A stretch of DNA of 64,000 nt from positions 434,001 to 498,000 of the forward strand of contig NC_015680.1 in the NCBI RefSeq assembly GCF_000215995.1. The letters run 5' to 3'. A model generated the notes under the pieces. That model worked only from the letters and a program-made list of their open reading frames with translations. It was not told where the DNA came from and made no database searches. The position numbers were made by a program, and so were the translations under genes. This document shows positions 3,672 to 44,363 of this stretch, one piece after another; within the stretch, counting starts at the first letter, position 1; each line of letters opens with the position of its first letter. This DNA comes from Pyrococcus yayanosii CH1 (lineage in GTDB: Archaea; Methanobacteriota_B; Thermococci; Thermococcales; Thermococcaceae).

Positions 3672-4250
3672 TCATCCCACCTCCTTCTCTTTTTTCGACC
3701 CCGCGTCGCCGACGGGGTCAAGGTGGTCGATGGCGGCCTTCACGATGGCGAAGACCCCATCGGGCGACCATTTCGAAGTGTCGATTATCAGGTCGTAGAT
3801 GGAGAGGTCGTTGATGTCGATTCCATATAAGTTTAAATATCTTTTCCTGTTCTGCATTTCTCTCTCGGCGATTTTCATGAAGGCCTCCTCGACGCTTATA
3901 CCCTCCCTGCGGGCAACCCTCTCGGCCCTCACCCTTATGGGGGCGTCGAGCCATATCTTCAGATCTGCGTTCTTTACCATCCATCCGGCGAGACGACCTT
4001 CAATTACCACGTTGCACTCCTTTGCGGCCTCGATTTGGCGCCTGTCAACCTCCCTGTCTATCTCGGGATGTAGCTCGGCATACTTTTGGAACTCCTCAAG
4101 GGTCATGCCGTGCTCCTTGGCCATCTGCCTGAAGATGAGGCCCGCGTAAACGTGCTTGAAGCCGTAGTACTCTGCAAGCTTCCTGCAGAGGGTTGTGGTT
4201 CCTGAACCTGCCAAACCACTTACGGTTACGACGAGGCACCCCTTGGGCAT
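3672..4250 (-). CDS. cmk: cytidylate (CMP/dCMP) kinase
   Basis: A 192-residue P-loop kinase phosphorylating CMP and dCMP to the diphosphates. The Walker A motif SGLAGSGTTT is at about 11-20, followed by the archaeal Cmk signature (YAGLIFRQMA) and a lid-region run of basic residues (RVARREG, REMQNRKRY). The length fits the archaeal family. It sits between two ribosomal protein genes, 11 nt after eL34 and abutting eL14, an arrangement that couples nucleotide supply to translation genes. GGGGTG precedes the ATG. Confidence 0.93.
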   Translation of the reverse strand: MPKGCLVVTVSGLAGSGTTTLCRKLAEYYGFKHVYAGLIFRQMAKEHGMTLEEFQKYAELHPEIDREVDRRQIEAAKECNVVIEGRLAGWMVKNADLKIWLDAPIRVRAERVARREGISVEEAFMKIAEREMQNRKRYLNLYGIDINDLSIYDLIIDTSKWSPDGVFAIVKAAIDHLDPVGDAGSKKEKEVG

Positions 4251-4261
4251 GGGGCACCCCT

Positions 4262-4531
4262 TCAGCTGAGCTGGGCCCTAATTTGCTCTTTCATTGCCCT
4301 GCGCATGCATTTGGGACAGAGGTGTGGATAAGGCCTCTCGGGCCTCTTCTTGGTCTTGGGAAGCTTCCTGAGCTCGACGGGCCTGCCCCTGGGTATCCCG
4401 TTGAGGGGCCTGCCGCAGATGGCGCAGTGAGCGATCTTTGGCTTCCTCCTCTCGAAGTGGATAACCACCCTTCCGCCAGGCGTCCTGACGTACTTCCTCC
4501 TCCATGACCTTGACCTGTACATAGGCTTCAT
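4262..4531 (-). CDS. rpl34e: 50S ribosomal protein eL34
   Basis: An 89-residue basic protein starting [20 protein letters not shown], with a zinc-ribbon made of CAIC and CPKC pairs. This is typical of archaeal eL34. I chose the ATG at 4531, preceded at normal spacing by GAGGTGG; a GTG three codons upstream would overlap that site. It is the first gene of the eL34-cmk-eL14 operon. Confidence 0.94.
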
Positions 4532-4626
4532 TCTCTCCACCTCGGCTATGCATTTAGGGGAGCATTTTTAAATTTAACCCGGAATAAGTTTAAAAGCCTC
4601 CTCCTTTAGGCTTGGGTGGTGGTGGG

Positions 4627-4881
4627 ATGGAGCCAAGACCGATGATCCTTGAGGGAGAGCCAGAGGTTGTTCCCGGAGGAGAGGAAGAGGTAGAGGCTAG
4701 CGAGGAGACCGTGGAGCAGTTCTTCGCTCACAGCAAGGGAAATACCGTCTACATATCCTTTGCGACCACGGACGCCAAGATAACCATAGGTATAAGCCAC
4801 GACAAAGCCACCCTGGAAGAGATGGTTAGGGCTGTTAAAGAGCTCATCTTGGAGTTTAAGGAGAGAAGGGGTAGGGTATGA
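4627..4881 (+). CDS. small acidic protein of unknown function
   Basis: An 84-residue protein. The N-terminal third is acidic and probably disordered (EGEPEVVPGGEEEVEASEET). The rest looks like a small alpha/beta fold ending in an amphipathic helix (EEMVRAVKELILEFKERRGR). I do not recognise the family. The ATG at 4627 follows a GGTGGTGGG site. The stop overlaps the start of the downstream radical SAM gene (ATGA), so the two are translationally coupled and probably work together. A TTTAAAAG TATA-like element lies about 35 bp upstream. Confidence 0.7.
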   Translation: MEPRPMILEGEPEVVPGGEEEVEASEETVEQFFAHSKGNTVYISFATTDAKITIGISHDKATLEEMVRAVKELILEFKERRGRV

Positions 4882-5900
4882 GGGAGTTAGAGAAAGCAAA
4901 AAAAGCTCTTCCCAAATATTTTGCAATCCTTGAGGGGGAAGATGTTCCCAATTTCTTCCTCGTGAGGAAGGTAGGCGTTGACTTCTCTCCTGATGCCCCT
5001 CTGGATGACCTCTGGACAAAGCATGGGGAAGGCCTGGACAGACTAAGGGAGAACGACCTCAGGGAGGGCCCGAAAAACCTGCTCGACCTTAAGGTGGCCA
5101 TCGCGGAGAGGATTCTGGAGAGCTGTCACCTCTGCGAGATTAAGTGCGGAGTCAATAGGAAGAGGGATATCGGATATTGTCGCGTCAGGGAAAGCCTCGT
5201 CGCCAGCGACTTCCTGCACCTCGGAGAGGAGCCGGAGTTGGTGCCATCTTACACCATCTTCTTCAGCGGGTGCAACTTCCGCTGCGTCTTCTGCCAGAAC
5301 TGGGACATAAGCCAGTTCCGCGTTGGCGTGCCCTACGACCCTCACATTATGGCGAGGAAAATAGAGCTGGCATTTGCCGAGGGGGCTAAGAACGTCAACT
5401 TCGTCGGCGGCGAGCCTACGCCAAACCTACCATTCATACTTGAAACACTAAGGCACGTTAGGGTTCCAATCCCCGTTATCTGGAACTCAAACATGTATAT
5501 GAGCGAGGCCGCGATGAAGCTCCTGGATGGTATAGTGGACATATATCTAGGTGACTTCAAGTGGGGCAACGACGAATGCGCCCTTAAATATTCGAAGGCT
5601 CCCCGCTACTGGGCCGTTGTAACCCGGAACTTCCTCCTCGCGAAGGGGCACTTTAGAGCTGAGTTCCTAATAAGGCACCTCGTGATGCCCGGCCACCTCG
5701 AGTGCTGCACGAGGCCGATTCTGGAGTGGGTAGCGGAGAACCTCGGCCGGGACGTGCGGGTTAACGTCATGTTCCAGTATAGGCCTGAGTACAAGGCTGA
5801 TGAATACCCAGAAATTAACAGGCTTCTCTGGGGAGAGGAGATGGAAAGGGCCGAAATGATTGTAAAGGAGCTCGGCCTCAGGAACGCCTTGGTGGGCTAA
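4878..5900 (+). CDS. radical SAM protein, PflA/COG1313-like
   Basis: A 340-residue protein. An N-terminal Cys region (CHLCEIKCGVNRKRDIGYC) precedes the radical SAM cluster motif CNFRCVFC at about 133-140, which binds a [4Fe-4S] cluster and S-adenosylmethionine. The downstream GGEPTPN is the SAM-binding glycine motif. The organisation matches the COG1313 'PflX-like' group, whose substrates are largely unknown. It overlaps the small acidic protein upstream (ATGA) and abuts a DUF192 gene downstream, giving a three-gene operon. Confidence 0.85.
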   Translation: MRELEKAKKALPKYFAILEGEDVPNFFLVRKVGVDFSPDAPLDDLWTKHGEGLDRLRENDLREGPKNLLDLKVAIAERILESCHLCEIKCGVNRKRDIGYCRVRESLVASDFLHLGEEPELVPSYTIFFSGCNFRCVFCQNWDISQFRVGVPYDPHIMARKIELAFAEGAKNVNFVGGEPTPNLPFILETLRHVRVPIPVIWNSNMYMSEAAMKLLDGIVDIYLGDFKWGNDECALKYSKAPRYWAVVTRNFLLAKGHFRAEFLIRHLVMPGHLECCTRPILEWVAENLGRDVRVNVMFQYRPEYKADEYPEINRLLWGEEMERAEMIVKELGLRNALVG

Positions 5901-6242
5901 ATGCTGAGAAACGATACAAAGGGGAAGGTGTGGACGGGGGAAGTTTGTATCGCGGATACGTTCCTTAAGAGGTTCCTTGGCCTGATGTTCCGCCGGGTAA
6001 CCTACGCCCTCATCCTCGTTCTACCGACCGAAACACGGACCAACGCTTCAATTCACGGCTTCTTTATGAGGGAGCCCATAGACGTCATCTTCCTTGACTC
6101 CGAGAGACGGGTTGTTGATATGACCCTGCTTAAGCCTTGGCACGTTTACCTTCCAAAAAGGCCGGCTCGCTACGTGGTGGAGGGGCCCGTGGGCCTTATA
6201 AGTGCCCTGAACGCGGAGGAAGGGGATGTTATAACCTGGTGA
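5901..6242 (+). CDS. DUF192 family protein
   Basis: A 113-residue protein of the DUF192 fold: an early [11 protein letters not shown] segment, the central [15 protein letters not shown] core, and the closing RYVVEGP...G-D-V-I-T-W. The family is widespread in archaea and bacteria and its biochemical role is not settled. There is no signal peptide here, unlike many bacterial members. The ATG follows the radical SAM stop directly, so it ends that operon. The 3' end overlaps the convergent taw3 gene by 14 bp. Confidence 0.85.
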
Positions 6243-6816
6243 CGGCTTCCTCAAGCCTCTTAAGCTTTCCTTTAAACCTCCTGAGCTGGGCATTTGCAAT
6301 CTCCACTATTCTGGCCAGGTAGTTCTCATCGACCCATAGCGTTCCGTTCAGACCAAGGGGCACGTCCATTCTCTCAGTTGAGCGGATTTCGACTATCAGC
6401 TTTCTTTCGCTTACGCTTTTTATGCAGGAGTACTTGAAGCCCGCCCCGATAGCGAGGTTGAGGAGCTTTAGAGCATCTTCCAACGTTCTTGCCCCAACGT
6501 GGAGTATGGGGCTCCTCACGAGGAACCATAGCTGGCCTTTTCTATGCTTCCTCACAGCCCCAAGGACCTCCTCAAGGGAAACCTCTCGGTGCCATTTACC
6601 AAGCCAAACGGCATTAACCTTGTCTCCGAAGTTGGGCATCTCCATAACTGATATTCGGCCCGAGCAGGAGGAGGTGGTAAAATAGCTGGGAAGGGCGTTG
6701 AACTTCCCCAGGAGGGGAATTATGTCTTCATCGACATCTCCCCTCTCCATGGCCGCCCTGAGTTTTTCGAGGGCCTTCCTTTTCTCGGCCTCGAAGCTCT
6801 TCGTGAAGGGGAGCAC
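6229..6816 (-). CDS. taw3: tRNA(Phe) wybutosine-derivative methyltransferase Taw3
   Basis: A 195-residue member of the Taw3/TYW3 family, which methylates the 4-demethylwyosine-type base at position 37 of tRNA(Phe). The family core is visible: an early [14 protein letters not shown] segment, then ...[21 protein letters not shown], and an [10 protein letters not shown] segment. The GTG start at 6816 follows GGGGGTG and lies 1 nt after the stop of the upstream helicase gene, so the pair forms an operon. The 3' end overlaps the convergent DUF192 gene. Confidence 0.9.
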
Positions 6817-6817
6817 C

Positions 6818-8788
6818 TTACACCCCCCTCAACTCTCTCGCGTCCACGAGCTTGCCCTTCTCCTTCACGAACTCCACGAGCCTTTTGTAGGTCGGGTGGG
6901 AGCTTAAGGTCGCGGAGTCACCCACGATTATGAGCTTCCTTTTGGCTCTTGTCAGGGAGACGTTCAGTCTCCTTAAATCCCTGAGGAATCCAATCTCGCC
7001 CCTCTCATTGGAGCGAACGAGCGAGAGTATTATAACCTCCTTCTCCCTCCCCTGATAACCGTCAACCGTCTTGACCTCAACATCTTCCGGAACGTTTAGG
7101 CTTATCAGGTCCCTCTGGTCATCGTAGGGAGTTATGACGCCTATCCACTCTGGCTTAACTCCCATCTCGATGAGCTTCCCGACGATTGTCGCAACTATCT
7201 TGGCCTCAAGCGGGTTTTCCCTCGATTCACTTCCCCTCCTTTGTCTCTCCCACTTGTCATGCCTATGAGCCGTGTCTATGAACACGAGGACGTTCTCCGG
7301 CCTTAGTATTTCGGCCCAGGGTTCGCTGAACCCTGGCTCCTTAACGCCCAGGTCGGCGAGCGTTATATTCTTGACGCTCTCGTCGGCGATTATTTTTCCC
7401 TCGTAGAACTCCCTACTTGGAAAGGCCATTAGGCGCTCGTTCATCCTGTATTGGATGTTCAGCATGGCACTCTTCTCGGGGTAGCGTTCTATGAGCCCCT
7501 CGAAGAGAGTTTTGGAGAGGGCTTGGGCCTCAAGGCTGAGGATGGTTGGGGGCAGTTGCCTGTGGTCACCCGCAAGTATGAACCGCTCCACCCTGTTTAT
7601 CGGAATCAGTATGCTCGGTATGGTTGCCTGCGTTGCCTCGTCTATGACGGCAACATCGAAGTCAGCCACGTCAAGGATTTCAAGAGCGGCCGAGGAGTTC
7701 GTCGTCAGGACAACATCGGCCTCCCTTATAATTTCCCGCGCTATCCTCTCCTCAAGCTTTCTCGCCTCATCGAAGGCCTTTTGGACCTGCCGGTTGAGCT
7801 TTATCCATTCCGCCATCTCCCTTATCAAACGTGCAGGGACACCCCTTGCCCCTATCCCCCTCTCAGCAAGCCTGAGTATTTCGTTGTCGCTCAGGCCGCG
7901 CCTGAACTTAGGCAGCGGCTTCGTGTAAGTGTCCCTCTTCTCCGCGAGCCCCTGGGCCGTTACGAGAAGCTCCCTCAGTTCACCATAAAGCTCGTGCCGG
8001 GTCATCTGATAGGCGAGGGTCGTCTCATGGAGGTGCTTCGACACTCGGCTAGGATGCCCGATGCGGACGACATTCAACTCTGCCAGCCTCTCGACTAGGT
8101 TGTCCACGGCGACGTTGCTCTCTGCCGTCGCTAGAACCTTGTTGCCGCGCTTTACTTCCTGCCTGATTAGCTCTGCTAGGGTTCTTGTCTTCCCGGTCCC
8201 GAATGGGCCGTGGATGAGGAAGAAGTCGGAGCTTCCAAGGGCGAGGCTTACAGCTTTTTTCTGGCTCGCGTTCAGCCTCTTATCTATTGGCTCGAACTCG
8301 ACAGGTTCACTTTTTTCCGGTTCCCTGAGGCCAAGATAGAACTCTAGGGCCTTTCTTCCACCCTCCCTCAGGTTGTCAAGGTTCTCAAGCCAGCGCCTAA
8401 AGGTTATGTCGTTGGCGTAGAGGTCAAGCCGGATTCCCTTGAGAGCCCATTCCGGCACGGTTTCGAGGGCGACGGTTATGAAGCGCTTTCCCTTTTCGAC
8501 AACCGTCCCCACGAGGTCGCTCTTCAGTGGGTCTCTCTTGCTGATTACTACCAAATCGCCAACGCTTATTTCTGTCTTTATCTCTCTCTCGCGGCCGTAT
8601 CTGACGAGAAAATAACCAAGTTCTTCACCCACCACCTTCCCGTTGAGGCCGAGAATCGCCCTACCAAGCTTTTCCCTCTCCCTTCCACTCAGCCTTCTCA
8701 TCTCTAACCTCATGGCCTCTATTTCAGCCTCTCTCTCGATTTCAACGAGTTCTTTTAGCTTGTTTACGAATCCCTTTATGCTCACCAT
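6818..8788 (-). CDS. superfamily 1B (Upf1/IGHMBP2-like) helicase
   Basis: A protein of about 656 residues. An N-terminal coiled-coil and beta-barrel region precedes the helicase core: Walker A GPFGTGKT at about 198-205, motif II DEATQAT, motif III GDHRQLPP, then QYRM, motif V (TVDGYQGRE) and motif VI (NVSLTRAKRKL). The order is that of Upf1/IGHMBP2-type 5'-3' RNA/DNA helicases found across Thermococcales. The start at 8788 follows GGGGCGG; the overlapping GTG just downstream is an alternative. It is the first gene of an operon with taw3. Its physiological substrate is unknown. Confidence 0.88.
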   Translation of the reverse strand: MVSIKGFVNKLKELVEIEREAEIEAMRLEMRRLSGREREKLGRAILGLNGKVVGEELGYFLVRYGREREIKTEISVGDLVVISKRDPLKSDLVGTVVEKGKRFITVALETVPEWALKGIRLDLYANDITFRRWLENLDNLREGGRKALEFYLGLREPEKSEPVEFEPIDKRLNASQKKAVSLALGSSDFFLIHGPFGTGKTRTLAELIRQEVKRGNKVLATAESNVAVDNLVERLAELNVVRIGHPSRVSKHLHETTLAYQMTRHELYGELRELLVTAQGLAEKRDTYTKPLPKFRRGLSDNEILRLAERGIGARGVPARLIREMAEWIKLNRQVQKAFDEARKLEERIAREIIREADVVLTTNSSAALEILDVADFDVAVIDEATQATIPSILIPINRVERFILAGDHRQLPPTILSLEAQALSKTLFEGLIERYPEKSAMLNIQYRMNERLMAFPSREFYEGKIIADESVKNITLADLGVKEPGFSEPWAEILRPENVLVFIDTAHRHDKWERQRRGSESRENPLEAKIVATIVGKLIEMGVKPEWIGVITPYDDQRDLISLNVPEDVEVKTVDGYQGREKEVIILSLVRSNERGEIGFLRDLRRLNVSLTRAKRKLIIVGDSATLSSHPTYKRLVEFVKEKGKLVDARELRGV

Positions 8789-35213: not shown

Positions 35214-36005
35214 TTAAATACCCCCGGCAGAATTTAAAGGTTGAAGGATGCTCCAGACAACAAAGAGCATGGCCACTGCAAGTGAGAGCAAGACAATCGT
35301 GAGGATTCTCCTTCCACCTCTGCGCGGGAGGTAAACCCCCAGAAAGCCGAACAGAGTGTTCAAAACTGAGAGAATCAAAAACCCTTCGGCGTTCCTAACC
35401 ACGGCATTGAACATCCTCAGAACGTCTTCTGGATAGTTCTGGGTTAAAACGTAAGAGGAGACGGCCCAGATAACGGGAATCGCGAGAGTTGAGGCAAGAG
35501 AGGTTTTACCAACGAACTCAAAGCCATCATCTGTCCTTTTACTCCTGAGAAAGTACAACGGGAGGACTATAATCCATACCACCATCGTGGCGAAGACAGG
35601 ATACATCACCACCATAAGAAAAGCCAGGCCAACGAACGCCATTATGGCAAGGAAAACATCATGAAACCCCAGGAGAGACGTACTGAAAATTCCCCAGAGA
35701 ATGAGGTGATGGGCTATGCATTCCTGCACGTCGTACTTCAGGTAGCCTGAATCCCACGGCTCATCCCAGTGCTCCTCAAGAATCTCGTCAATTCTCTTGA
35801 TGTCCCTCTTCCTGTATCCATGCTTCTCTAGAATGCGGGCGAGGAAGAAGACCATTGAAGCTACCATGAGGACAAAAAGAAGGACCGTACTAAGAACCCA
35901 TTCAAGGGTTATGACGCCAAGTTTCACCCAGGCGAAACCAAATAGCACCGCGAAGAGCACCACAGGAAAAACAAAGATCTTAAGAATGATTTTTCTCCTC
36001 CTCAT
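35214..36005 (-). CDS. multi-span membrane protein, putative bacteriocin immunity/export partner
   Basis: A 263-residue protein with about seven hydrophobic segments (starting MRRRKIILKIFVFPVVLFAV) and a charged cytoplasmic loop (ARILEKHGYRKRDIKRIDEI). No named family is recognised. The ATG at 36005 follows GGTGGTCTC. It lies 44 nt downstream of the halocin C8-like precursor on the same strand, the usual place of an immunity gene. A disrupted homologue is found in two halves at 38803-39277 and 44096-44363, so the family recurs in this island. Immunity is an inference from position. Confidence 0.6.
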   Translation of the reverse strand: MRRRKIILKIFVFPVVLFAVLFGFAWVKLGVITLEWVLSTVLLFVLMVASMVFFLARILEKHGYRKRDIKRIDEILEEHWDEPWDSGYLKYDVQECIAHHLILWGIFSTSLLGFHDVFLAIMAFVGLAFLMVVMYPVFATMVVWIIVLPLYFLRSKRTDDGFEFVGKTSLASTLAIPVIWAVSSYVLTQNYPEDVLRMFNAVVRNAEGFLILSVLNTLFGFLGVYLPRRGGRRILTIVLLSLAVAMLFVVWSILQPLNSAGGI

Positions 36006-36049: not shown

Positions 36050-37126
36050 TTAGATTCGTGAAGCCAAAAGCGCGCAGAATTGGGGACAAAATAGAGGAGT
36101 AAAAACTGCCGCACAGCCAGATTCACATCCAGGAAATGGTATTTTACATATGTATCTTCCACAGAATACTTTTTTCACAAGGATTTCACTGCAACCATAA
36201 GAACAACCCGCACTTGAAGCAAGTGACTTTATGTCCATTGAGCCGCATAAAGTACTACATCCCAACGTGCAAACTCCGCCTCCAATAAGACAGATGGCAC
36301 TAAGCACCCATCCACCAGATGCCATAGCCCCTAAGCATACTATAGTAAAAGCAGAGGTACATGCTAAATCACAAAGGTGGGAGCATCCTGAGTAGTCATC
36401 GATGACTATAGCGTACCCTAAGTTTGTTTTTCCGTTGTACTCAGGAAGCTTAAGCCTCACAAGGTGTGAAAGATGTCTTAACTCGTAAGCACTCCTGCCC
36501 CAAATCCAGCTCGTCTCGTCACTCCTACGAAGCTTCATAAGAATTTTGTTCAGAGTCCAGTAGTAATCTGAAAGCGTAAGGTTGCCGAGCACAAGCACAG
36601 TATCCCCGACAGGAAGAGCTTTATCCTTATCATGGGGAGCGATGTTCATCCCAGTAACAAAAGCCCTGTACTCCCCAGTCTCCGGGTCGGTTAGGATTTT
36701 AGTGATTAGCGTAAAATTATACTGACTTCTCTCGGCTCTATAAACAAGGTTATATATGGTATAGTTAACGGTGGCATTGTAGGCAGTAACCTTGACGAAC
36801 AACAACTGTTCATGATCCCTTGTCATGTTGTACAGGGTTATTATCGAAACATTAACGTGAGCGCTCGTATTAAAAGCACCACAGGAACTACCGTTCTGGC
36901 AAACGCATGGAGAATGCGTCAAATTAGTGAAGTTTAATGTTGCATTCACCCAAGTTACGTTCATCTGAAGTTTACCATTCTCATCGTACCAAGCAACGAC
37001 TGCCCTCCTAAAGGTTACGCTGGCGTTGCTGGTACTCATTGCCATGGCCTGCGGTGCCGCAATCAACTGCAGGCTCAACACTATGAAGATCAGAAACACG
37101 CCGAACGTCGCCTTTCTCCAGTTCAT
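36050..37126 (-). CDS. halocin C8-like bacteriocin precursor
   Basis: A 358-residue secreted protein. A Sec-type signal peptide (MNWRKATFGVFLIFIVL ... AMA) is followed by an extracellular region of about 215 residues rich in N-x-S/T sites. The C-terminal domain of about 115 residues holds 16 cysteines in a hydrophobic, glycine-rich context (CSHLCDLAC, AICLIGGGVCTLGCSTLC, CESGC, CPQFC). This matches the pattern of halocin C8-type microhalocins, whose precursor carries a cleavable Cys-rich peptide at the C-terminus. The ATG at 37126 follows GGTGGTGGCC. Membrane-protein genes follow on the same strand. Antimicrobial activity is inferred. Confidence 0.65.
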   Translation of the reverse strand: MNWRKATFGVFLIFIVLSLQLIAAPQAMAMSTSNASVTFRRAVVAWYDENGKLQMNVTWVNATLNFTNLTHSPCVCQNGSSCGAFNTSAHVNVSIITLYNMTRDHEQLLFVKVTAYNATVNYTIYNLVYRAERSQYNFTLITKILTDPETGEYRAFVTGMNIAPHDKDKALPVGDTVLVLGNLTLSDYYWTLNKILMKLRRSDETSWIWGRSAYELRHLSHLVRLKLPEYNGKTNLGYAIVIDDYSGCSHLCDLACTSAFTIVCLGAMASGGWVLSAICLIGGGVCTLGCSTLCGSMDIKSLASSAGCSYGCSEILVKKVFCGRYICKIPFPGCESGCAAVFTPLFCPQFCALLASRI

Positions 37127-37327
37127 GGCCACCACCTGACCAGTCGGTCAAGGAGAGCAGGCAATCTCCATATATAAATTTTTTCCTTTTATAAGTTGGA
37201 TTTAATAACGTTTTTTTTTCGTAGGATTTTCAATTTCCAACCGTACCAAAACGACGAGAACAAGACGAAAGAAGGGAGAGTAAAAGAGTGAACAAAAGAA
37301 CACAAAAGTTCACCCTTAGCAATATCA

Positions 37328-38063
37328 TCATTGGTCATCGAGTTCTATTCCATGAACCTTCAACCTCAACCACCCGAGAAACGTCCCAAAGGGGAGGAAA
37401 ACCGTCGTGAATATATAAAACAGCCTGAACATCGTCAGCAGGGATTCCCTGATGAAGAAATCACTGTACTTCCCCGTGAATATCATCAGAGCCACTACCA
37501 CCCCAAACTCATAAAAGATGCTGTAAAACAACCGCCAGGCCCCGCCTTCGGCGTATTTCCTCTCCAGCAGACCCGTTTCCAGGAGTTTTTGTGTTACCTT
37601 GTAGTCTTTTTCAGAAACAACCGCGAAAAGTATCCCAATCAGCCCGCTTATGACCAGACTATCAATCACGAAGAGGTAAAGCCCCAAAAGTTATGGCCAC
37701 AAAATTTACAACGGCCCGGATTTTGAGTATCCGGTCGGATATTACGTACCTGTGGGCCATCATGGAACAGTACCAGCCAGCTATAACAGGAACGTAAAGC
37801 GCCATCGAGAGGCTCTTTTCCAGACTCACCCCCGAGGAGTACGCGATTGTGAACACAAGGAGGAATGCTGAAAGTTCCTTGAGGAAGTCTCTCCAGGAGT
37901 AGAAGACTTTTTCCGGTGTTTTCTTGTCCCTTTCCTGTAGTGTCACCACAAGAAACAGCGCGAAGGCACCGATTATGAACAAAACACCGAGCATTTTAAC
38001 GAGGGGAATGAAAGAAGTGCCCGGTTTCGCAAACATCAAGTAGATAAACCCAAATAATAGCAC
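37328..38063 (-). pseudogene. multi-span membrane protein gene split by a T-run frameshift
   Basis: From GTG 38063 the frame encodes about four hydrophobic helices (LLFGFIYLMFAKPG ... SGVSLEKSLSMALYVPVIAG) and ends at 37662. An overlapping frame beginning at TTG 37687 continues with further helices (GLYLFVIDSLVISGLIGILF ... LRLKVHGIELDDQ) to 37328. It has no start site of its own. A run of four T near 37682 is the likely slip point; one base less joins them into one protein of about 245 residues. No family is recognised. TATA-like CCTATATCTTT is about 45 bp upstream. Confidence 0.5.
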
Positions 38064-38156: not shown

Positions 38157-38528
38157 TCACCTCTCCAAAACCTTTACCCTCAGACCGTACTCCTTAAAGC
38201 GCTCAAAATCAGCATCGCAGGTATAGAGCGTTGCGTTATGGGCTATGGCAGTGGAAGCTATGAGAAGGTCCTTTGTTGGAGGTCTCAGGCCCTTTGACAT
38301 CAGGTCCCTGAATATCTCACCTGCAATCTCTGCACTTGTCCTGTCAAAGTCCAGGACAGGCATCTTTTCAAGGGCCAGCCTTTGTCGGGGTTTGAGATTC
38401 CCGCAGAGGAGCTCAAAGAGCACTATCGACGGAAGGGCATACTCGGCATCTTCGGAGAGCTGCACTAAAACCTTCTGATTGCCTTTGAACAGCTCAATCA
38501 CCACGCTGGTGTCCAGGAGTTCAGCCAT
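38157..38528 (-). CDS. vapC: PIN-domain ribonuclease toxin VapC
   Basis: A 123-residue PIN domain. The acidic active site residues are present: D6 in [10 protein letters not shown] in FELLCGN, D in [10 protein letters not shown], and D in TCDADF. VapC toxins cleave RNA (often tRNA) and are held inactive by VapB. The gene overlaps the vapB 3' end by 31 bp, as is usual for these pairs. Confidence 0.9.
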
Positions 38529-38728
38529 TCCTCGACCTCCTTCATTTCCTTCTCAAATTCCTTGGCCTCTTCTTCCGTCATTGTCCCGAAGGCTATCATG
38601 AGCACACCGAGGTTGCCCTTCTTTTTCTTGCCTATGAGCTCCCTCAGGAGCTCGGAGAAGCTCTTGTTCCCCTTCATCCTGACGAGCTCGTAGTAAACGT
38701 CATCCGCTATGGTTATCGTCTTTCCCAA
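38498..38728 (-). CDS. vapB: VapB-type antitoxin (DUF217/UPF0330 family)
   Basis: A 76-residue antitoxin. It has an N-terminal DNA-binding segment ([20 protein letters not shown]), a [11 protein letters not shown] helix and a C-terminal acidic, toxin-binding helix. The start is probably TTG 38728 after GGTGGTG; GTG 38737 is the alternative. Upstream, GTGCATGCATGCAC (38744-38757) is a palindrome just ahead of the gene and could be the autoregulatory site of the pair. Confidence 0.82.
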
Positions 38729-38802
38729 CGGCACCACCTATAAGTGCATGCATGCACGAAATATTTAAAACTTGCCCGCGAGCATCTCCAAACCATCCAG
38801 AT

Positions 38803-39277
38803 TTAGGCCACAAAAATCATTGTTAAAGCCAGAGCGGTTAGTTTCTTCGATCTTTTAGGAAGGTAAAGGCCAATTAAACCAAAGAGTAAGTTTAACCCGG
38901 AAAGCTCTAGCAGTGAGACCACCAATTCCGTTTTCCGCCCGAAGGCCATGAGCTCCCGATAGGGTCGTCGCCAGCCGGATAGCTGGAGTGGAGCGCGATG
39001 AGCCTGACCGCGACGAGGACTGCCGTATAAAAGAGGTTCTGTCTAACCGTCAGCTCAATTAAAAAATCTCTATCAGGTTCCTTTCCCTTGAATAACTCGT
39101 AGAGGGCAAAGGGAAGCCCCAGGATCCAGATGACCATGGAAACGAGGAGAACGAAGAAGGCAAAGATTCTGGCGAATATAGCAACCCCATTGAGAACTCC
39201 CCTCACCGGGCCTCCGGCCATCACCAGGGAGCTCGCGAAGAGGCCCCAGAAGACGAGTGTTTTTCCGATTATGTTAA
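38803..39277 (-). pseudogene. C-terminal half of a disrupted membrane protein gene
   Basis: From the TTAA joint at 39274-39277 the minus strand reads NIIGKTLVFWGLFASSLVMA with further membrane segments (ILGLPFALYELFKGKEPDRD). After a frame shift near 38940 it continues ELVVSLLELSGLNLLFGLIG to the stop at 38803. It aligns with the second half of the membrane protein at 35214 (LILWGIFSTSLLGFH; VLNTLFGFLGVYLP). The first half of the same gene is 4.8 kb away at 44096-44363, and the reading frames join exactly across the two TTAA joints. Confidence 0.7.
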
Positions 39278-39280
39278 AGT

Positions 39281-39469
39281 CTACCTAGGGATTAAGGGCA
39301 TCTACCTCGGCCCCAAGCCACCGGAGTTCCTCACCCCAGAGTCTTTGAAATCTTCAGGAAGCAGTTCGACCTAAGGCTCACCGGCGACCCGGAGGCTGAC
39401 CTCAGGGACATACTCAGCAAGGGGGTTAAAATAGAAGAAGGCTCCGCTCTGGCGGAGGAGCTTGATTAA
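39281..39469 (+). pseudogene. hcp: 3'-terminal remnant of a second hcp gene
   Basis: The sequence encodes YLGIKGIYLGPKPPEFLTPE. After a one-base shift near 39341 it continues VFEIFRKQFDLRLTGDPEAD to the end EEGSALAEELD. This is the last about 60 codons of an Hcp. It differs from the intact hcp at 20708 in about ten residues, so it is not a recent copy of it and probably came from a related strain. It sits upstream of the toxin gene just as the intact hcp sits upstream of the locus 1 toxin. Confidence 0.8.
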
Positions 39470-39695
39470 ACCAACTCTACTTTTTCTCTTTCGGCTACTG
39501 GTGTTTAGATTCATGGATTTGGATTCTGTGGGGCTTCTGGCTGTTCTTAGATTGTCATGTTTCGGCGGTTGTAATCTGAACTCCCTATGGAGTAGTGATC
39601 TAATTTTAATTGCCGTTGTTTTGTTAATACTAATAATAGAAAACTTTTTAAGACTTGGATTTGTTATCCTTATGAACAATATTGGAGGTGAACTC
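39470..39695 (+). promoter_or_regulatory. conserved hcp-toxin intergenic region with toxin promoter
   Basis: This 226-bp stretch has no gene. It is strongly similar to the region between hcp and the locus 1 toxin (about 20484-20707, opposite strand), including the shared TTCTTAGATTGTCATGTTT and the run up to the start codon. TATA-like CTTTTTAAG lies about 45 bp before the toxin start, and GGAGGTGA is the ribosome site. Confidence 0.55.
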
Positions 39696-40703
39696 ATGGG
39701 CTGGAAGCGGTTTGTTGCGCTGGCATTGGTGGTGCTCTTCCTTGGAATGACGGTCAGTGGAGCCAGTGCTACTGCCAGCTTCGTTAATGCAACGGTGAAC
39801 AGTACGGCAACGCTACCCGGAGACCTCAGTCCGGGGAAGCCGGGCGATGAGGTCCAGCCTGAGAATGTTGGTGCTGAGATTGTAGTAGAGAAATTCTTTG
39901 GTACATTTGTTCCGGGCATAGGATGGGTAGTGTTTATAAGCGGAGTTGTATTGGCAATTTCAAAATATTTGTACTCCAAACCGGTTAGTGAGTTCACTGA
40001 AGCGTTCTATAAAGAACTTCCAGACAGAATTTCATACAACGGGCAGGAACTGGCAAAAGGAATCGAGAACAAGAACCGATGGGGGACTAAAGTAGAAATT
40101 GGATACGGCTATGTTAAAAAGAAGTGGTTTGGCCTCAAAAAGGAAACCGTCATAGTGAAGTCAGTCATAACAATAACCAGAGACGAAGTCAAGGCTGTCG
40201 AAGACTTATTCAGCCCGAAGGAATATGGCAAACTCCTTGCACGGGCATACCTCAAAGGCTGGGACGCTAACGATGCGAAGAATGTAGTAGAAGAATTCTA
40301 TGATGCGTACAAAGATGTATTCGTTAAGAACAGAGTGACGTTCAGAGGAGCCCCATGTGGGAACTTCCCACCTGGCAAGGTTGTACTCACAAAGAAACGA
40401 GTTGCGCACATAGTTGGCAGGCACGTCTTTGGGATCTACGAGTATGCTGGTCAATCAGATCCAACGATATTTCCAAAATACCTAACGATAAGGGAAATAG
40501 TAATCTTAATCAAGAAGGCCATAGAAACTGGTAGCGTAACATGTGACCCAAAGGATCCAAATACTGTGATAATTAGAAAAACATTCCCAGAGCTTAGGAC
40601 TAACCCACATACGTCAAAAACACTAAGGGTAATACTAAGGTACAACAGGTCAAAGGGATGGTATGAAATTATCACTGCGTACTTAGAGTGGCTAAGGAGG
40701 TGA
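39696..40703 (+). CDS. secreted/membrane polymorphic toxin-like protein with C-terminal BECR-type nuclease domain
   Basis: A 335-residue protein. The signal peptide is MGWKRFVALALVVLFLGM, and an Ala/Asn/Thr-rich linker follows. A hydrophobic segment at about 75-95 (IGWVVFISGVVLAISKYLYS) is followed by a conserved stalk (SEFTEAFYKELPDRISYNGQ). The variable C-terminal domain from about 215 carries VAHIVGRHVF, a mid-domain IKKAIETG and the closing WYEIITAYL. That H...RH...T-A-[FY] pattern resembles BECR-fold (barnase/EndoU/ColE5-D/RelE-like) RNase toxins of bacterial CDI systems. The domain varies between copies in this window while the N-terminus is almost constant. The stop overlaps the ribosome site of the immunity gene. 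Nuclease activity is inferred. Confidence 0.6.
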   Translation: MGWKRFVALALVVLFLGMTVSGASATASFVNATVNSTATLPGDLSPGKPGDEVQPENVGAEIVVEKFFGTFVPGIGWVVFISGVVLAISKYLYSKPVSEFTEAFYKELPDRISYNGQELAKGIENKNRWGTKVEIGYGYVKKKWFGLKKETVIVKSVITITRDEVKAVEDLFSPKEYGKLLARAYLKGWDANDAKNVVEEFYDAYKDVFVKNRVTFRGAPCGNFPPGKVVLTKKRVAHIVGRHVFGIYEYAGQSDPTIFPKYLTIREIVILIKKAIETGSVTCDPKDPNTVIIRKTFPELRTNPHTSKTLRVILRYNRSKGWYEIITAYLEWLRR

Positions 40704-40800
40704 ATGTGGTGTCTTTCTCCTTTGTTTTCTTCGGCTTTGAGGAGGCGCTTCGTGGGGAAGTTCCAGAGGATACTCTAACCATTGCCATCAAACACGGGGA
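40694..40800 (+). repeat. 107-bp direct repeat, copy 1 (start of family A immunity gene)
   Basis: This stretch, from the ribosome site AAGGAGGTGA into the first about 30 codons of the immunity gene, is identical to 43893-43999. Part of it is also near-identical on the other strand around 18150-18230. Such identity inside otherwise diverged genes points to recent recombination or gene conversion. Confidence 0.85.
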
Positions 40801-41737
40801 TGAGATTATACCCTTGGGCGATTGCTTCACCAAGGACGCGGTTGGTGACGTTATTGAGGCAATAGCATTCGCCATCAACTCCTGCGAAGGCGTTAAAGAA
40901 TTGTACCTCAGGAGCGGACGGTGTGGAGTTTTGTTGTTTCCAGGCAGATATTGCCGAGATAACAGCATTACCTTGAGGTTAGGCACTTATGAACCAATGT
41001 CTCATATTAGGTTTAAAATCAGGGGCGACCTCCTCCAGCTCAAAATACACAGAGAGAACAGAAAAGATTTGGAGACTGTGGAGGTTCCTCGTGAGGAGTT
41101 TGTTTCCTCTTCTCTGGCTTTTGTTCGTTCTTTTCTTGCGAAGTTTCCGGATGAGGGGTTGATGAGGAAGGTTGAGATTGTGGAGGAAATGGCGAGGAGG
41201 AAGGGTCTTCTTCCAGCTGAGGGAAAATTTGAAATTAAGGTTGAATGGCTTGGGGAAGTTAAATGCGGGAAGGAGAAATTTCCGTTGGTTTACGCTGTCG
41301 TAAGCCATGGGAGGGAAATATTCAGCGGGCTCGTCGAGCCTGTAGCCTTTGCAGGAGACTTGATAAACCTCCTAAAATTCAGCCGGGGCATGGAAATTAG
41401 GTGTGAGATTGACATGACACCCCACACTGACGTCCTTGAAAAGGCGCTGTCTCTTGTTGAAAGCGATAATCCGGGTAACTACCTCTTACTCTGGTTTGGA
41501 GGCGAGTGGCCTGGCACGGTGTTTGTATTCAATGTTGATGACGAACTCGTTTTTGTGAACACTAAAACCGGGTCAGTCATTAGGGTCAAGAAAGAAGAAG
41601 CGGAGGCTGTAGCTGTTAATGTTGTTAGGGAGATAATAAGGGAGTTAAGGAAATGGAATGAGGAGTTCATCGGCCCCATAAGGAAGAAGGATGCCGTTTC
41701 CATGCTCATAGGGGAGCTTGAGGGGGCCCTTCAATGA
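40709..41737 (+). CDS. family A immunity-like protein (intact)
   Basis: A 342-residue soluble protein with no family I recognise. The N-terminal half carries the family A pattern: SFSFVFFGFEEALRGEVPED, then GDCFTKDAVGDVIEAIAFAI, then RLGTYEPMSHIRFKIRG, then a V-P-R-E-E-F helix. The C-terminal half contains VVSHGREIFSGLVEPVAFAG. I chose GTG 40709 because it is conserved in all three copies and lies 6 nt after AAGGAGGTG. It follows the toxin gene with overlapping signals and overlaps the next gene (ATGA), the expected position for a cognate immunity protein. The immunity role is an inference. Confidence 0.6.
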   Translation: MSFSFVFFGFEEALRGEVPEDTLTIAIKHGDEIIPLGDCFTKDAVGDVIEAIAFAINSCEGVKELYLRSGRCGVLLFPGRYCRDNSITLRLGTYEPMSHIRFKIRGDLLQLKIHRENRKDLETVEVPREEFVSSSLAFVRSFLAKFPDEGLMRKVEIVEEMARRKGLLPAEGKFEIKVEWLGEVKCGKEKFPLVYAVVSHGREIFSGLVEPVAFAGDLINLLKFSRGMEIRCEIDMTPHTDVLEKALSLVESDNPGNYLLLWFGGEWPGTVFVFNVDDELVFVNTKTGSVIRVKKEEAEAVAVNVVREIIRELRKWNEEFIGPIRKKDAVSMLIGELEGALQ

Positions 41738-44095: not shown

Positions 44096-44363
44096 TTTCC
44101 TTCGAAAAATAGAGCCTACCGTGGGTCTTTTCGATTATTTCTGGGAGACGTTTCAAGTCATCTTGTGAGTAGCCGTAGCGTTCAAGGGCCTTTCCAACGA
44201 AGTGAAGCGCTACAAGGAGAAACGGGATGAGAAGGAGGAAGGCAATGAAAAGGTTCACGGCGTTGAGGTTTTTCCTCGTCTGGGAGGAGAGAGTCCACAG
44301 GGCGAACCAGGAGCCCGGAACGAGAAGCCACGGGATGAGGTAGTCCCTGATGAAAACCCTCAT
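44096..44363 (-). pseudogene. N-terminal half of the disrupted membrane protein gene
   Basis: The ATG at 44363 starts MRVFIRDYLIPWLLVPGSWF, two hydrophobic segments and a charged loop (KALERYGYSQDDLKRLPEII). These align with ARILEKHGYRKRDIKRIDEI of the membrane protein at 35214. The coding sequence stops making sense at the TTAA joint, where the inserted segment begins; the second half is at 38803-39277. TATA-like ACTTATTTACT lies about 27 bp upstream, so the promoter survives. Confidence 0.7.

Follow-up and report, generated by a model that had tools for sequence, protein, structure and literature searches.

Class II bacteriocins are small hydrophobic secreted peptides that have dedicated small membrane immunity proteins. 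Among archaea, the recognised archaeocins are essentially the halocins and the sulfolobicins (PMC10105419). In the halocin C8 system (ProC8/HalI/HalC8; TIGR04449), a single gene encodes a secreted precursor, exported via the Tat pathway (PMC11509114), whose long N-terminal part, with the immunity domain HalI, precedes a hydrophobic, glycine- and cysteine-rich C-terminal peptide. Polymorphic toxin systems (Zhang et al. 2012; Makarova et al. 2019, cited in PMC8416519) consist of a constant N-terminal part and an exchangeable C-terminal module, with a matching immunity gene immediately downstream, orphan immunity genes, and fixed chromosomal sites. Finally, VARTIG, a module specific to Thermococcales, has a large (>500 aa) Ig-domain protein (arCOG07710) at its 5' end, a hypervariable C-terminus, and membrane-protein partners (PMC8416519).

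The locus analysed here lies in a 64,000-nucleotide stretch of the hyperthermophile Pyrococcus yayanosii CH1 (contig NC_015680.1, positions 434,001 to 498,000 of the forward strand; hereafter, the window) and quite probably represents a cassette belonging to a polymorphic, bacteriocin-like archaeocin system, in which a glycosylated pro-domain stays constant, the disulfide-rich peptide behind it is exchanged, and a membrane protein provides the matching immunity. Its overall plan (secreted precursor, long N-terminal part, and hydrophobic glycine- and cysteine-rich C-terminal peptide) is that of halocin C8, and a small ORF also lies 3' of some haloarchaeal halocin C8-like genes. It shares with the polymorphic toxin systems all the features listed above, the immunity role of its downstream gene being a prediction; however, its cargo appears to be a small, disulfide-rich, hydrophobic peptide rather than an enzyme, its precursor has no recognised trafficking domain, and its partners are membrane proteins. 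It resembles class II bacteriocins in the predicted pairing of a small hydrophobic secreted peptide with a small membrane immunity protein, but is archaeal, very rich in cysteine, and placed behind a 240-aa domain, and neither a double-glycine leader nor an ABC exporter was seen. Like VARTIG, the precursor family is specific to Thermococcales, with a hypervariable C-terminus and membrane-protein partners, yet the window precursor has only 358 aa and no Ig match. The papers searched contain no description of its N-domain family; the 2019 mBio work of Makarova and colleagues, which reportedly enlarged the family of halocin C8 and put forward further predicted archaeocins, may include part of this system.

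Precursor gene and promoter region

The minus-strand ORF at 36050–37126, which starts with ATG and is preceded by the ribosome-binding site GGTGGTGG (37129–37136, minus strand), is confirmed as a real gene. Its 358-aa product comprises a signal (residues approx. 1–30), a constant, sequon-rich N-domain (approx. 31–240), and a cysteine-rich tail (approx. 243–358). A sequence-only reading of this gene had proposed a signal peptide, a long glycosylatable middle part, and a 16-cysteine, glycine-rich, hydrophobic C-terminal domain of approx. 11 kDa, and each of these elements has been borne out. Residues 1–30 read as a Sec-type signal, and the twin arginine of Tat export signals is absent from it (MNWRKATFGVFLIFIVLSLQLIAAPQAMAM). 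The mature N-domain contains 13 N-x-S/T sequons compared with approx. 3.1 in shuffled sequences (0 of 5000 shuffles reached this number), and the tail contains none. With 16 cysteines in 124 aa, the tail far exceeds the 0.7% cysteine of neighbouring proteins (binomial P ~1e-15). The predicted mature peptide (DDYSGC...LLASRI; 36053..36400, minus strand), whose cleavage position before DDYSGC we infer from the boundary at which tails are swapped, has 116 aa, a computed mass of 11.85 kDa, which comes near the proposed value, a GRAVY of +0.89, 14 glycines, and all 16 cysteines.

Pfam and NCBIfam searches with the precursor returned zero matches, including none to an Ig domain; within these databases, the window tail could not be significantly matched to a known family of toxins or bacteriocins and showed no recognised toxin domain, the halocin C8 domain occurring in sibling tails of type D only. 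PDB sequence searches returned nothing relevant, and PHROGs, PADLOC, and Rfam yielded zero matches. No maturation protease was identified for the precursor, and its tail has no membrane anchor other than its own hydrophobicity. Because usable relatives are few, the AF2 models are of low confidence (mean pLDDT 35 for the precursor and 46 for the downstream membrane protein).

Approximately 110 bases 5' of the start codon are conserved across chromosomal sites and tail types. On the minus strand, they comprise an upstream element, GGTTGGAAATTGAAAATCCTACGAAAAAA (37214..37242), which conservation across the family marks as a family-wide regulatory site, a similarly conserved TATA-box-like sequence, ATTTATATAT (37170..37179), and, just before the ribosome-binding site, an inverted repeat, TGACCGACTGGTCA (37137..37150), whose family-wide form is TGACC(N)nTGGTCA. 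GGTTGGAAATTGAAAATCCTACGAAAAAA is unique in the genome at up to 3 mismatches, and before the second precursor copy of this genome the element is degenerate. Of the 34 matches to it in other loci, 28 are located where a precursor begins and a further two at least are found beside other genes, so that it is best regarded as a family promoter, although not an exclusive one. In locus L132 (6921-8910), it precedes a gene whose product terminates in a motif like that of C39 peptidases (DGCSPIAASMVVAYY), and in L048 and L108 (near 4100-5080), a gene for a 297-aa exported protein; these genes possibly encode alternative cargo or a processing enzyme.

N-domain family and exchangeable tails

When the whole precursor served as the query, 15 of 101 genomes proved to contain relatives, and an alignment query detected the N-domain in 29 of 94 Thermococcales genomes; within the phylum sample, it is restricted to this order (29 of 115 genomes). 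Relatives share the first approx. 240 residues, after which a sharp boundary (G-h-x-h-x-D) leads into a tail of one of about ten types (A to J), which, like their boundaries, were assigned by eye on aligned tails. The window precursor carries a type A tail and the second copy in the same genome a type C tail; types E and F are mutually related (hhalign 94%). Since tail B is found on two clearly different N-domain subtypes and the N-domain tree requires 18 changes of tail type, the tails evidently move. The number of cysteines is nearly fixed within tail types and mostly even, i.e., 16 in A (12 of 12 tails), 20 in B, 10 in C, 12 in D (one with 10), 6 in E, 12 in both F and G, 8 in H (4 of 5; one with 7), 10 and 12 in I, and 8 in J. 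This is the pattern that would be expected of fully disulfide-bonded exported peptides.

In one genome (locus L045, 6722-7687), the sole precursor copy is broken by a stop codon, and the type C tail and its partner are still there. Searches of viral contigs and plasmids returned no relatives of the cassette and thus gave no evidence of viral or plasmid carriage.

The relationship to halocin C8, to which the sequence-only reading had assigned the window precursor, is indirect. The TIGR04449 model matched neither the window protein nor any other protein of its genome, whereas the Haloferax volcanii control was positive; the HalC8 peptide, a second positive control, scored 61.5 bits. Type D tails, which occupy the same position after the same N-domain, match TIGR04449 with E values of 1e-10 to 1e-12, above the curated cut-off; however, hhalign relates the type A tail to them with a probability of only 22%. 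Moreover, the window tail has 16 cysteines in approx. 116 residues, compared with 10 in all haloarchaeal examples and the ten in approx. 76 residues that characterise halocin C8. Comparison of the N-domain with three haloarchaeal halocin C8-like precursors gave an hhalign probability of 0.09 (few sequences and hence low power), and no HalI-like N-terminal immunity domain was recognised by this method. As judged from these comparisons, literal identity of the window's own domain with halocin C8 fails, although the bacteriocin-like plan stands and the functional guess of a bacteriocin-like peptide is probably right.

A second Thermococcales precursor family has an unrelated N-domain and the same kind of tail as type D (hhalign 98%), and the protein encoded downstream of it resembles the partner of the type D tail in locus L040 (E ~1e-6). 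Given that type D siblings and this second family both carry halocin C8 tails, the window-type precursor, whose own tail differs, appears to belong to the halocin trade. Genes of the second family lie at 6135-6929 (L112), 6713-7498 (L113), 6102-6887 (L114), and 5952-6719 (L115), and are followed by genes for membrane proteins and a conserved, signal-bearing protein of approx. 170 aa (c49).

Partner membrane proteins

The gene located 44 nt downstream of the precursor (35214..36005, minus strand; ATG at 36005, stop at 35214) encodes a polytopic membrane protein of 263 aa of family c1, which the pairing with tail type described below predicts to be an immunity protein. The suggestion that membrane-protein genes (in the plural) follow in an operon was thus correct for one same-strand gene; beyond it lies the convergent ileS, and the other membrane-protein ORFs near the precursor are upstream and are broken remnants.

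A comparison of 46 precursor loci, located mainly at four chromosomal sites, revealed that the family of the downstream gene corresponds to the type of tail rather than to the site: tails A are followed by c1, B by c4 (with an overlap of approx. 9 bases), C by c46, F by c43, H by c62 or c44, and I by c117. A downstream family is shared by 109 of 141 same-type pairs and by 15 of 894 different-type pairs; when labels were shuffled 10000 times, the mean was 16.9, the number never exceeded 43, and 0 of 10000 shuffles were as high as observed, although the genomes are related and the loci are not independent. Partners of type D are diverse, and the pairing rule is thus looser for this type. A simple hydropathy scan predicts that the partners are membrane proteins. 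The correspondence extends to subtypes: within type A, the clade of the first downstream c1 matches the tail subtype in 4 of 4 A1 loci, the window included, and in 7 of 7 A2 loci, a match that seems hard to attribute to position alone. Taken as a whole, the pairing suggests that the downstream membrane protein probably protects the producer.

Putative orphan immunity genes and neighbouring loci

Loci for bacteriocins and polymorphic toxins typically contain immunity genes that have been left behind. Relatives of c1 occur in 50 of 94 genomes, and seven genomes that have no precursor carry close relatives (E < 1e-99); the precursor-less genes that were inspected lie at the ileS site, at a second site, or elsewhere. 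In one precursor-less genome (L127, 5064-5138), a possible 25-residue remnant of the end of a type A tail lies directly before c1 (E 0.007, suggestive), which is perhaps a deletion scar. The window itself contains, on the minus strand, a frameshifted and N-terminally truncated copy of c4, the partner family of type B tails (37331..38063), which similarity points to as an orphan immunity remnant, and a degraded c1-family remnant recognised in the same way (38785..39224). Another weak c1-like remnant (E 1e-4) lies at 44124-44339 on the same strand.

Two further loci of the window should be mentioned. At 38157-38737 (minus strand) lies a VapC/VapB-like toxin-antitoxin pair, which has the same position in several relatives whose cassette occupies the ileS site. 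The plus-strand region 39462-41737, located 2.5 kb from the cassette, encodes a protein (39687-40700) that looks secreted and whose basic C-terminal region recalls polymorphic nuclease toxins. Its ORF overlaps a gene for a protein of 349 aa that apparently contains an internal repeat. Pfam gave no match for the proteins of this region, which is possibly a second toxin-immunity pair.

Proposed function and alternative explanations

Within the context of a polymorphic archaeocin, the precursor would be exported by its Sec-type signal, and the constant, probably N-glycosylated N-domain would serve as a carrier or pro-domain, preventing the tail from doing harm and assisting it in folding. A cut near the conserved hydrophobic-x-D boundary would release a peptide of approx. 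116 aa and 11.8 kDa with up to eight disulfides, which may insert into or block a membrane target in related strains, while the membrane protein whose gene follows after 44 nt would shield the producer in a manner specific to the tail type. Diversity among strains would arise as the tail and its immunity gene are exchanged together at a few fixed chromosomal sites, with the promoter and N-domain in front of them staying the same. A role of the N-domain as a tail-specific immunity domain, like that of HalI for halocin C8, was considered and rejected, because the N-domain is constant while the tails change; a carrier or pro-domain is the more likely function.

The co-variation of tails and partners and the swapping of tails would fit a variable module of the cell surface or of self-recognition, involved in kin discrimination or adhesion, equally well. 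In such a module, which would follow a logic similar to that of VARTIG, itself a hypervariable Thermococcales module with membrane-protein partners (PMC8416519), a displayed tail would pair with a membrane protein without any killing. This explanation is nonetheless unlikely, since the halocin C8 domain, which secreted antimicrobials are known to carry, makes up one of the tail types, the persistence of partner genes without a precursor is a better fit to immunity than to pairwise recognition, and the tail, devoid of an anchor beyond its own hydrophobicity, goes with a protein in which no Ig domain was matched. It is also conceivable, although very improbable, that the cysteine-rich secreted peptide has another role, such as metal binding, signalling as a pheromone, or a structural function in the envelope: cysteine-rich tails could bind metal and secreted peptides can signal, but near-invariant and usually even cysteine numbers, high hydrophobicity, type-specific partners, and loci that retain only the partner are ill-suited to metal binding or structure, and a pheromone-receptor pair would account for the co-variation but not for the halocin C8 domain.

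Slightly more improbable still is a halocin C8 precursor in the strict sense, i.e., one gene that encodes a HalI-type immunity N-domain together with halocin C8. The overall plan and the halocin C8 tails of sibling precursors speak for it; against it are the absence of a TIGR04449 match, of N-domain similarity, and of a Tat signal, the presence of 16 rather than 10 cysteines, an N-domain that is invariant across tails and hence is no tail-specific immunity domain, and a predicted immunity function encoded by a separate gene. The polymorphic archaeocin is thus the explanation that we prefer. Its broader form, in which Thermococcales employ about ten unrelated or very distant peptide types, mostly outside described families, with one glycosylated pro-domain, one conserved promoter, and their own membrane immunity proteins, in cassettes swapped at four chromosomal sites, is somewhat less secure, albeit still rather likely.

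Significance

If this explanation is true, hyperthermophilic Euryarchaeota would have a first bacteriocin system, one that is modular in a way not known for halocins. Such a modular peptide-immunity system would arm hyperthermophiles with peptides of about ten families that withstand temperatures near 100 °C, and the matched immunity genes would serve in finding their targets. Furthermore, it would demonstrate that the peptide weapons of archaea, like the polymorphic toxins of bacteria, evolve through the exchange of cassettes.
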